Assembly (NCBI GenBank): GCA_039818985.1 | Contig: JBCBSU010000001.1 | Span: 150,367 to 214,366 of the forward strand | Source: Pseudomonadota bacterium | GTDB lineage: Bacteria; Pseudomonadota; Alphaproteobacteria; Sphingomonadales; Sphingomonadaceae | Length of the DNA stretch: 64,000 bases | Direction: 5' to 3' | In this document: one piece after another, positions 38,131 through 42,972 of the stretch | How positions within the stretch are numbered: position 1 is the first letter of the stretch | Layout of the letters: the number at the start of each line of letters is the position of its first letter | The notes under the pieces: generated by a model | The model's database searches: none | Told to the model about the DNA's origin: nothing | The model's input: the letters and a program-made list of their open reading frames with translations, nothing else | Translations under genes and position numbers: made by a program

Positions 38131-38760
38131 TCATGCCGCCAGCACATAGGACTTCTCGCCTTCATTGCGGCACATGCGTTTTTCGACGCGGGTTTCCTCG
38201 CCTTCGATGATCGCGATATCGGTCACCGTCATGCATTTGCCGCCGCTGGGACGTGAATTGACCGCCGTCACCGTCGATGACCCAGACACGCCCTGACGTG
38301 TCGGACTTTCCCATGACGCGCTGGCGCCGACCTCTTCCTTCTCGGTGGCCTGGCGGCTGGCCTCGGCGGCGGCGGCCTGCTCCTCGGCATCGAGCTGACA
38401 GGCAATTTCATCGGCCAATATATCGGAGAAATCATTGTTGATGATATCATCAAGCTCGCTGAGGCCGGCGGCGCGGCTGACATCGCCGAGCAGACCCCGC
38501 GCGGCATTATTGTCGCGCCGCGCGGCACGGCATTTCTCAGCCGCAGTCATGTCGGTCTTGCGCTGCTCTTCCTCTTTTTTCCGGCGCTCGCGTTCGCGTG
38601 CCCTTTTGGCTTCGCGTCCGATGCGCCCGAGAAACTGGAACGTGCTTGTCGCCGAAGAGAAGCCGGTGGCGGGTTCGGCTGCCCATGCCGCCATATGCGG
38701 GGCCGGCATCATCAGCGCAGCAGCGGATAATGCGGTAACGATCCGATGCGAAAAGGCCAT
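38131..38760 (-). CDS. Exported protein with 17-kDa surface-antigen-like C-terminal domain
   Basis: A 209-residue protein with a signal peptide (to about AAWAAEP) and a highly charged helical segment (REAKRARERERRKKEEEQRK, ~48-68). A C-terminal domain follows with ADEIACQLDAEEQAAAAEA, SASWESPTRQGVSGSSTVT and IIEGEETRVEKRMCRN. The last part is ~60% identical by eye to the C-terminus of the neighbouring gene product and resembles the rickettsial 17-kDa antigen outer-membrane domain. Function unknown. It lies downstream of its paralogue on the same strand. Confidence 0.7.
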   Translation of the reverse strand: MAFSHRIVTALSAAALMMPAPHMAAWAAEPATGFSSATSTFQFLGRIGREAKRARERERRKKEEEQRKTDMTAAEKCRAARRDNNAARGLLGDVSRAAGLSELDDIINNDFSDILADEIACQLDAEEQAAAAEASRQATEKEEVGASASWESPTRQGVSGSSTVTAVNSRPSGGKCMTVTDIAIIEGEETRVEKRMCRNEGEKSYVLAA

Positions 38761-38879: not shown

Positions 38880-39878
38880 CTAGGCCAGGACATAGGCCCT
38901 TTCGCCGGGATTGCGGCACATACGCTTTTCGATCCGGGTTTCCTCACCCTCGATAATCGCGATATCGGTGATGGTCATGCAGCGCCCGCCATTGGGCCGC
39001 GCCACCAATTCGGTTACGGTGGATGAGCCGGATACACCCTGGCGCGTCGGACTCTGCCAGCTGGCAGTGGCACCGACGCGTTCTTCCTGTGTTACCTTTT
39101 CCGTCGCCTTGACCGCCTCTTCCTGCTCCTCTCTGGTCAACTGGCAAGCGATTTCGCCGACCAGTACCGCCGAGGCGCCAGCGACCAGAACCGTCTCCAG
39201 TCCGTCCAGACCCGCCGCCTGTCCGGCAATGCCGCCAACCAGTCCGCCAAGCAGGCCGCCACGCTTGCGCGCCTTGCCGCAACCCTGCGATTTTGTCTTT
39301 TTCTTCTTCCCGTCGGCCTCGGCGATCTGCGCCTCTGGCAGGGTATATTCGGGCACCGGATAGCCATTGCACCCGGTGTTGAAGCAGAAACGGTCCTGCA
39401 GATAGGCACGATCCTCCTCATAGTGCGCGACCGCGATGCGATAATCGGCCATATTCGCTCCATCGGGCTCTGATGCGGCATGCTCGGCGCGCATCTCGGC
39501 GTAAAAGCGCTGCTGTACCGCAGGGGTGAGTGTTGCATTGCCTTGCACCTGGGTGGAATAGATGCGCGCGATTTCGGTCTGGTGCGCGATCATCGCTTCG
39601 GCAAAGGGTAGCAACACATCGTTATAATAGGCGTCGATTGTTGCGGTGCACTGGTTGACCGCTTCGGCGCGTTCCCATGGCGGGTCCAGCTTTTGCCAGT
39701 CCTCGCGACAATCGGGATAACCCTCTGCAGACAGTGCGGGTGCCGTCGGCAATTCGGGTATGACCATGATCTCGCCTGCGGCATTGCGCTCCTGTGCCGC
39801 TACGCTTACCGGACCGGGCAATCCGGCAGCGAGTAGTGCTCCTAAAAGGGCAGGCGCAAGAACCAGTGAAGGACGCAT
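38880..39878 (-). CDS. Exported protein with glycine-zipper and 17-kDa surface-antigen-like domain
   Basis: A 332-residue protein: signal peptide (to about SVAAQER), a ~190-residue region with six or more Cys (CREDW, NQCTATIDAYY, RFCFNTGCNGY), a basic stretch, then a Gly-rich segment (GGLLGGLVGGIAGQAAG) of the glycine-zipper type. The C-terminal ~80 residues are shared with the next gene product: EIACQLTREEQEEA, TASWQSPTRQGVSGSSTVT, IIEGEETRIEKRMCRN. Probably outer-membrane associated. The N-terminal part has no family that I recognise. Confidence 0.7.
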   Translation of the reverse strand: MRPSLVLAPALLGALLAAGLPGPVSVAAQERNAAGEIMVIPELPTAPALSAEGYPDCREDWQKLDPPWERAEAVNQCTATIDAYYNDVLLPFAEAMIAHQTEIARIYSTQVQGNATLTPAVQQRFYAEMRAEHAASEPDGANMADYRIAVAHYEEDRAYLQDRFCFNTGCNGYPVPEYTLPEAQIAEADGKKKKTKSQGCGKARKRGGLLGGLVGGIAGQAAGLDGLETVLVAGASAVLVGEIACQLTREEQEEAVKATEKVTQEERVGATASWQSPTRQGVSGSSTVTELVARPNGGRCMTITDIAIIEGEETRIEKRMCRNPGERAYVLA

Positions 39879-41450: not shown

Positions 41451-41784
41451 GGTGTCAGGATCCCCTGCTGGTCATTGGTCTGGGCGTAAAAAAGGGCAAA
41501 AAAAATGCCCGCAAGGCGGACATTATGGCGCTGATATGTGTGGGATATGGGCTTGAGGGACATGCGCTTGAACAGGGGCTCCGGCACGATACTGTGCTCG
41601 GGCCTTGGCAATGCGGGGCTACTGGGCGCAAGCCGGTAATCGACCGATCTGTAGGCGGCCCGTCTGATACCAAATTGCGCCCGGCTGTGCTTCATGCCCG
41701 CAGTGTTAACCTCAAAATCATGACATGCTTATGACGAATCTTGACAGCAATGAATCGTGTTGCCGCAGTGAGGTCAACCCCCCA
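41451..41784. other. Gene-free stretch before the structured element
   Basis: 334 bp with no credible gene. A small hairpin (GGGC-A/T-rich loop-GCCC) occurs near 41491-41505, likely part of the HNH gene leader, and there is a TTGACA hexamer near 41738-41743 with no good -10 after it. An 87-codon minus-strand frame (41432-41695) overlaps the HNH start and has no recognisable features. Confidence 0.5.
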
Positions 41785-42062
41785 AAGCCTTAAATTTATA
41801 CACAGAACGGATTGTGGTATGAGACTATTTGGCTGGTCAACAGGAGGGAAGCGCAGCGCGATGTGGTGCATTGTCCACGCTTTCCGACGCAGTGAGAAGC
41901 CAAATAGGCCATATCCTGAGCCTTTGGCTCAGGACGTCCAAATGGCTTTGACCTGCTGCAAAACCGCTCTTGGACGTGCCACCGGCACGCCCTGCGGACG
42001 GTTTCACAACATCTCTGCGCCATTTGGACGCCACAACCGCCCTGTGTATAAATTTAAGGCTT
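41785..42062. repeat. 278-bp MITE-like element with perfect 21-bp terminal inverted repeats
   Basis: Ends 41785-41805 and 42042-42062 are perfect 21-bp complements (core TTAAATTTATACACAG). They extend inward with one mismatch pair and one bulge (41808-41818 with 42031-42039). Inside are three adjacent arms. Arm A is CTATTTGGCT (41825-41834) with 41898-41907, containing a GTGG/CCAC hairpin (41863-41878). Arm B is a 9-bp hairpin, 41914-41922 with 41926-41934. Arm C is CGTCCAAATGGC (41935-41946) with 42019-42030, containing AAACCG/CGGTTT and CGTGCC/GGCACG hairpins. No TSD was found and no coding capacity. It is either a non-autonomous transposable element or a structured RNA; copies elsewhere would decide. 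Confidence 0.8.
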
Positions 42063-42120
42063 CTCGACAAAATATGGGGAGAAATATCGTCACACCATAC
42101 CGCCGGTTGAATCTTTTCTC

Positions 42121-42972
42121 ATGACCCTGCGCACCCGTTTTGCACCCAGCCCGACCGGCCATCTGCATATCGGCCATGGCTATGCCGCGCTGATGGTCGA
42201 GGCTGAGGCACGGCGTCTCGGTGCCGCTGTGACCTTGCGCATCGAGGACACCGATGCCACCCGCTGCAGGCCCGCATTCACCGAGGCGATTATCGAAGAC
42301 CTGACCTGGCTGGGCTTTGGCTGGGACCGGCTGGTGGTGCAGTCGGAGCGGCTGGCGCATTATGATGCGGCGATCACCCGGCTGGCGGCGGACGGCCTGG
42401 CCTATCGCTGTTTCTGTTCGCGCAAGGAGGTTGCCGCGGCGGCGACTAAAACCGGACCTGAGGGGCCGCTATACCCTGGCACCTGCCGTGGTCTCGATCC
42501 GGATGTCGCTGCAGCACGCGCCGAGATCGAACCATATGGCTGGCGCTTTGATCATCGCGCGGCGATGAACCGCTATGGGCGGCTCAGCTGGCGGGACAGT
42601 GACGGGGTGGCGCATATAGCCGAGCCTGGCCTGCTCGGCGATGTCCTGCTCGCCAGCCGTGACCGGCCCGCCAGCTATCATCTCGCTGTCGTCGTCGACG
42701 ATGCTGCCGATGCGATCAGCCATGTCGTGCGCGGTGCCGACCTGTTGCTGGCCACCCATATCCACCGGCTGTTGCAGGCAGCGCTCGGCCTCGCCACGCC
42801 AGTCTATCACCACCATAAGCTGCTGCTCGACAGCGATGGCCGCAAGCTTGCCAAATCGCGTGTCTCAATGGCGCTGACGACGCTGCGGCAATCGGGGGTT
42901 GAGGCAATAGCATTGCGCCGTGATCTCATGGAAAAGCGTTTTCCTGCTGGCATTACGCTGCAAACACCCTAA
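42121..42972 (+). CDS. gluQ: Glutamyl-Q tRNA(Asp) synthetase
   Basis: A 283-residue truncated glutamyl-tRNA synthetase paralogue lacking the anticodon-binding domain. Motifs are HLHIGH (class I HIGH, ~14-19) and KLAKS (KMSKS equivalent, ~244-248), with Cys residues CFCSR and YPGTCRG for the zinc site. It attaches glutamate to queuosine at position 34 of tRNA(Asp). The start ATG 42121 lies 58 bases past the structured element, so the element may sit in its promoter region. Confidence 0.93.
   Translation: MTLRTRFAPSPTGHLHIGHGYAALMVEAEARRLGAAVTLRIEDTDATRCRPAFTEAIIEDLTWLGFGWDRLVVQSERLAHYDAAITRLAADGLAYRCFCSRKEVAAAATKTGPEGPLYPGTCRGLDPDVAAARAEIEPYGWRFDHRAAMNRYGRLSWRDSDGVAHIAEPGLLGDVLLASRDRPASYHLAVVVDDAADAISHVVRGADLLLATHIHRLLQAALGLATPVYHHHKLLLDSDGRKLAKSRVSMALTTLRQSGVEAIALRRDLMEKRFPAGITLQTP

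Follow-up and report, generated by a model that had tools for sequence, protein, structure and literature searches.

A MITE upstream of gluQ in a Sphingomonadaceae genome with two oppositely polarised, putative RNA arms

The element upstream of gluQ

We analyzed a 64,000-nucleotide stretch of a Sphingomonadaceae genome (hereafter the window). At 41785-42062 it contains a 278-bp element that lies between two divergent genes, an HNH-endonuclease-like gene (- strand) and, on the other side, an ORF (+ strand) that we take to be gluQ from the look of its translation (Table 1). The perfect 21-bp terminal inverted repeat (AAGCCTTAAATTTATACACAG / CTGTGTATAAATTTAAGGCTT) mentioned in a preliminary description of this DNA is present. 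It reaches 26 nt at 92% identity, and the terminal stem extends to 33-34 bp with mismatches. The predicted fold also reproduces the three abutting, side-by-side arms of that description, with outer stems of 10 bp in arm A (CTATTTGGCT/AGCCAAATAG) and 12 bp in arm C (CGTCCAAATGGC/GCCATTTGGACG) and, between these two arms, the 9-bp hairpin of arm B (TCCTGAGCC-TTT-GGCTCAGGA).

Table 1. Features at and around the element, in window coordinates
Feature	Coordinates	Strand	Remarks
Left flank of insertion	41780..41784		Empty-site relatives: CCCC-TTA-TGTCAC
P1 left arm (terminal inverted repeat)	41785..41817		Pairs with 42031-42062
Arm A	41818..41913	+	+ strand favoured, -40.7 vs -31.7 kcal/mol; model R1 match 72.9 bits (L001:1534-1630 = window 41818-41914)
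Hairpin B	41914..41934		9 bp in window copy; CCC-NNNN-GGG hairpin of just 3-4 bp in most relatives
Arm C	41935..42030	-	- strand favoured, -62.0 vs -45.8 kcal/mol; model R2 match 91.5 bits, E 1e-21
P1 right arm	42031..42062		Pairs with 41785..41817
gluQ (presumed; glutamyl-Q tRNA(Asp) synthetase)	42121..42972	+	ORF; downstream neighbour, outside element

The minimum free energy of the window copy is -144.1 kcal/mol, compared with -84.7 +/- 5.4 kcal/mol in dinucleotide shuffles (z = -11.0; 0 of 200 shuffles). In this GC-rich window the absolute value is not diagnostic, as the best of 228 other tiles reaches -145.8 kcal/mol (mean -106). Because another tile equals it, the case for the element is carried by the shuffle control and by the evolutionary evidence.

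In both other sequenced congeners that were compared (G001, locus L215, and G002, locus L216), the region upstream of gluQ lacks the element and aligns on either side of it, and the flanking genes are collinear with those of the window. The empty site reads GGTCAACCCC TTA TGTCACAAAATATGGGG in G001, with one base different in G002, and the occupied site consists of GGTCAACCCC CCA, the element and CTCGACAAAATATGGGG. The empty sites of these two relatives show that the element is an insertion. The preliminary description had seen no target duplication. In the window copy both ends have drifted to AA...TT. The family to which it belongs has TA at both ends, and the relatives' empty site contains a single TA and reads TTA at the insertion point.

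Two minor observations concern the surroundings. A short block upstream of gluQ (GGTCAACCCC-TTATGTCA-CAAAATATGGGG) is conserved in the genus and is split by the element (41770-41784 / 42063-42085); it is possibly a promoter or operator. On the - strand, adjacent ORFs at 38131-38760 and 38880-39878 are nearly identical in their C-terminal regions (SPTRQGVSGSSTVT...DIAIIEGEETR.EKRMCRN, for example) and are likely a tandem duplication with diverged N-terminal parts.

A dispersed family with IS5-type partners

With the window copy as query, a DNA search detected relatives in just 7 of the 398 Sphingomonadaceae genomes. The number rose to 44 of 398 when a more central copy was used and to 59 of 398, belonging to 29 of 96 genera, with a covariance model built on arm C. 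When 84,980 species genomes were scanned by pattern, 87 stretches were returned, nearly all from Sphingomonadales. A class-wide search added three genomes from other alphaproteobacterial families, with related elements that are about 270 bp long and CTAG-flanked where complete. We extracted 120 distinct complete copies, whose lengths cluster at 266-270 bp; family statistics on stems and arms are based on 83 representatives with <90% identity. The highest copy number in one genome was 14 (G116), all near-identical and at different sites. The members of the family share one length, carry no transposase gene and are dispersed over unrelated sites. Plasmids and phages searched with the window copy gave no match, nor did phages searched with another family copy; the central copy matched six plasmid records. 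In Rfam, at a permissive threshold, nothing was found on the element and no family reached its gathering score, and our literature search found no paper describing the element family.

The window genome has two copies only, both diverged. The second (L067, G000:C1:1554153-1554366) has termini unlike those of the window copy (AAGGCTCAGGGTCTATGAAATTGATGG). The preliminary description had named a single-copy sequence without covariation as an outcome that would speak against it; we found a second member in the same genome, a multicopy family and covarying stems. We conclude that the element is a MITE, of an unusual kind, and belongs to a widespread alphaproteobacterial family.

Of the 120 copies, 81 have a TA at each end. 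Family copies typically start with TAGG and finish with CCTA, which together with the adjoining letters makes YTAR, mostly CTAG (n = 80; CTA/G 42, CTA/A 11, TTA/A 10, TTA/G 10). Termini of this type also bound IS5-family elements: ~850-bp elements in Polymorphobacter (TAGGCTCAGGACCTATTA...CAATGAGTCCTGAGCCTA), IS5-family sequence in Nitrobacter, and a CTAG-flanked element of 852 bp in genome G319. The transposase of these end-sharing elements is spread over two frames, with matches to PF13340, DDE_Tnp_1 and NF033580. In genome G106, the terminal 18 bases are identical between the IS end and the MITEs. IS5-family insertion sequences (NF033580, IS427-like) and the element family thus have in common the ends TAGGSTCAGGACYYATT and the CTAG target; the former encode a transposase in two frames, whereas the latter has no transposase gene and a length of 270 bp.

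These comparisons indicate that part of the family, the TCAGGAC-type copies, has termini of ~17 bp in common with autonomous IS5-family elements. Identity to a known IS end, which the preliminary description had held to be incompatible with its proposal, therefore applies to these relatives and not to the window copy, in which the termini are too diverged to be recognised. We found no IS with AGGCCGTAAACTCATAA ends, and no IS partner for the CGTAAAC-type copies or for the window copy. Since its genome has no NF033580-type transposase and only two diverged copies, the window copy may be dead. On plasmid pMC4 of Sphingopyxis indica (L126), an IS5-type gene with GTAGCGTTTACATTCAG ends separates the right end of one family member from a second, complete one; because the ends of this gene differ, it was rejected as a partner and regarded as a mere neighbour.

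The terminal stem is well paired despite wide sequence divergence: 95.3% of cells are Watson-Crick (34 pairs, 83 members), compared with 63% with shuffled partners. Its single mismatches show no strand bias (G.T 33.5, A.C 33). Because the two kinds are equally common, we read the terminal stem as DNA-like, and their equality is explained by a DNA-level process or requirement, either a transposase needing equal ends or arm-to-arm copying.

The termini are also exchangeable modules. Two copies in Novosphingobium sp. MD-1 (L098 and L046 in G380) have interiors that are 96.5% shared and terminal stems that are wholly different, each self-complementary, with the switch point at the CGAGG/CCTCG junction. 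On the interior tree, we counted 13 switches between the two main terminus types, versus 15.6 with shuffled labels, a rough number given the few strongly supported nodes. Gene conversion of interiors between copies would be the simplest account of this exchange. Two deletion derivatives, both at TA targets, have losses that coincide with arm boundaries: L090 (G288:C3:59585-59650) is a terminal stem alone, of 66 bp, and L101 (G106:C7) retains the terminal stem and arm A without arm C.

The mobility of the element family is well supported. The mobiliser would be IS5-family transposases (PF13340 plus DDE, NF033580 type) that act in trans on the non-autonomous element and insert it at YTAR targets, most often CTAG, leaving TA at both ends.

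Strand polarity of the interior arms

All stems of the family covary heavily. Cells changed on both sides numbered 225 in arm C and 144 in arm A, compared with 64 and 38, respectively, in shuffled and slid controls. In addition, the two arms prefer opposite strands. Arm A folds better on the + strand, by a mean of 11.7 kcal/mol (80 of 83 copies), and arm C on the - strand, by a mean of 12.4 kcal/mol (81 of 83 copies); as the copies are related, neither these polarity counts nor the loop counts below are independent. Because the polarities are opposite, the whole element has no net bias (mean strand energy difference 0.2 kcal/mol). The mismatches follow the same pattern, with G.T 57 versus A.C 6.5 in arm A and G.T 14.5 versus A.C 90 in arm C. 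Internal loops are purine-rich and recurrent on the favoured strands only: GA/GA in 56 and GCN/AA in 41 of 83 copies for arm A (+), and GAA/GAA in 60 and GCN/AA in 67 of 83 for arm C (-). On the unfavoured strands, GCN/AA was seen in 1 of 166 cases (1 and 0).

Distant copies show the same polarity in all nine arms (9 of 9), and an AGGA...GACGC loop and a GCM...CAA loop often occur in both of their arms. The retention of this polarity across bacterial families argues for continuing constraint. The distant copies and the common GCN/AA loop hint that arms A and C are copies of one unit; at E<=5, model R1 finds no arm C and model R2 no arm A, and an alignment of the two arm consensuses is at chance.

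The preliminary description had likened the element to a multi-branch structured RNA. We rejected one such RNA on the equal strand energies of the whole element and the opposite arm polarities: because arms A and C are each optimised on a different strand, no single transcript presents both arms in favoured form, and what lies at the locus is a transposable element. The accompanying remark that the near-complete pairing exceeds what a simple MITE needs is borne out by the strong compensatory change in the arms and by their strand-specific features.

These features bear directly on the foremost rival explanation, that of a plain MITE in which only the termini matter and the interior stays paired because gene conversion and template switching (quasi-palindrome correction) keep palindromes perfect. 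We consider it unlikely. It accounts for the symmetric mismatches of the terminal stem, for the concerted change of both terminal arms in near-identical copies and for the free swapping of termini. Template switching is strand-blind, yet arms A and C have strong opposite strand biases; moreover, their non-pairing purine loops are conserved and the arm polarity is the same in other families. For arms A and C, this explanation is disfavoured. Bacterial MITEs are usually seen as decayed ISs, with folding as a by-product of their ends. The strand-resolved evidence, which spans genera and families, sets a DNA-like terminal stem apart from two interior arms that are under constraint on opposite strands, and makes the purpose of a MITE's interior a testable question. 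The modular exchange of termini suggests how different transposases could serve one interior.

Strand bias fits folded RNA and folded single-stranded DNA alike and does not separate the two, since strand-specific folds with mismatches appear with DNA energies too. The arms might thus fold as single-stranded DNA and be recognised in this form by a protein when the element transposes or is replicated, in the manner of REPIN hairpins and integron attC sites, and the inverted pair of arms would be as in REPINs. We hold this to be somewhat less probable still than the plain MITE, because the termini and the partner IS are of the IS5 DDE type, and transposases of this type work on double-stranded ends. 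L090 and L101, which sit at TA targets without one or both arms, also speak against it, unless the arms were lost after insertion. We favour an element that is probably a MITE moved in trans by IS5-family transposases and that carries two inward-facing structures, arms A and C, for which we infer an RNA function.

Stop codons and a possible role at mRNA 3' ends

The left TA is in frame as a stop codon, after at least 50 open codons, in 58 of 81 cases, compared with 31 and 17 for the other frames. The right TA shows a weaker, modest excess (59 of 92, versus 45 and 21). Part of the stop-codon excess reflects selection that removes disruptive insertions at TA targets.

The cargo enclosed by the terminal inverted repeats consists of two ~97-nt structured arms in inverted orientation and is probably not junk. 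Transcription entering from the left would meet arm A first and transcription entering from the right arm C, each being the best folder on that transcript. Because the favoured arm is met first from each side and stop codons are frequently overlapped, we propose that the arms act as RNA and, most likely, form mRNA 3'-end structures in both directions (an exonuclease barrier or a processing site), serving genes with a stop codon overlapped by the element. No U-tract follows arm A or arm C, which makes an intrinsic terminator unlikely; protection or processing is more likely than intrinsic termination. Such a role would make insertions at stop codons tolerable and help the element to persist. 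It cannot apply to gluQ itself, because the window copy lies on the 5' side of this gene, between divergent genes, and may do no more there than lengthen the 5' region.

The least probable explanation is that the cargo is an independent small RNA gene, or a convergent pair of such genes, with a promoter of its own: conserved structure, covariation and the sRNAs produced by C. burnetii MITEs (PMC10969869) would fit, but the terminal stem is an unlikely place for a promoter, since the stem sequence is freely exchanged, and there is no Rfam match. Extending the 3'-end reading, we suggest only tentatively that the family represents a kind of structured RNA unit that has not been described before (stem, AGGA/GACGC loop, stem, GCM/CAA loop, hairpin) that, as an inverted pair, could have been spread across Alphaproteobacteria by IS5-type transposases via exchangeable termini and could supply mRNA 3' ends at stop codons on both sides.

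Several known repeats resemble the family in part. REPINs and BIMEs consist of two structured units in inverted orientation and are intergenic, as is the case here; the element family differs in having no known RAYT partner, arms several times longer, and flanking IS5-type terminal inverted repeats. The CIR repeats of Caulobacter and Brucella are alphaproteobacterial intergenic repeats of about 110 bp, with two arms and a linker, a conserved GANTC and no terminal inverted repeat (PMC2229807). Our family is likewise alphaproteobacterial, intergenic and two-armed, but has terminal inverted repeats, a length of ~270 bp and mostly no GANTC, which is wholly absent in 57 of 83 members; identity with CIR was rejected on length and on the lack of a conserved GANTC. 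Correia/NEMIS, RUP and ERIC are TA-ended intergenic MITEs with terminal inverted repeats and highly base-paired transcripts; IS630-Spn1 was proposed to mobilise RUP in trans, and some TA-ended MITEs affect mRNA via RNase III or RNase E (PMC2229807, PMC10969869). The element family shares with them the terminal inverted repeats, the TA termini, the intergenic position and, probably, mobilisation in trans by an IS. It differs from them in its greater length (about 270 bp versus 100-200), in IS5-type termini that are exchanged as modules, and in two separately folding arms of opposite strand polarity.
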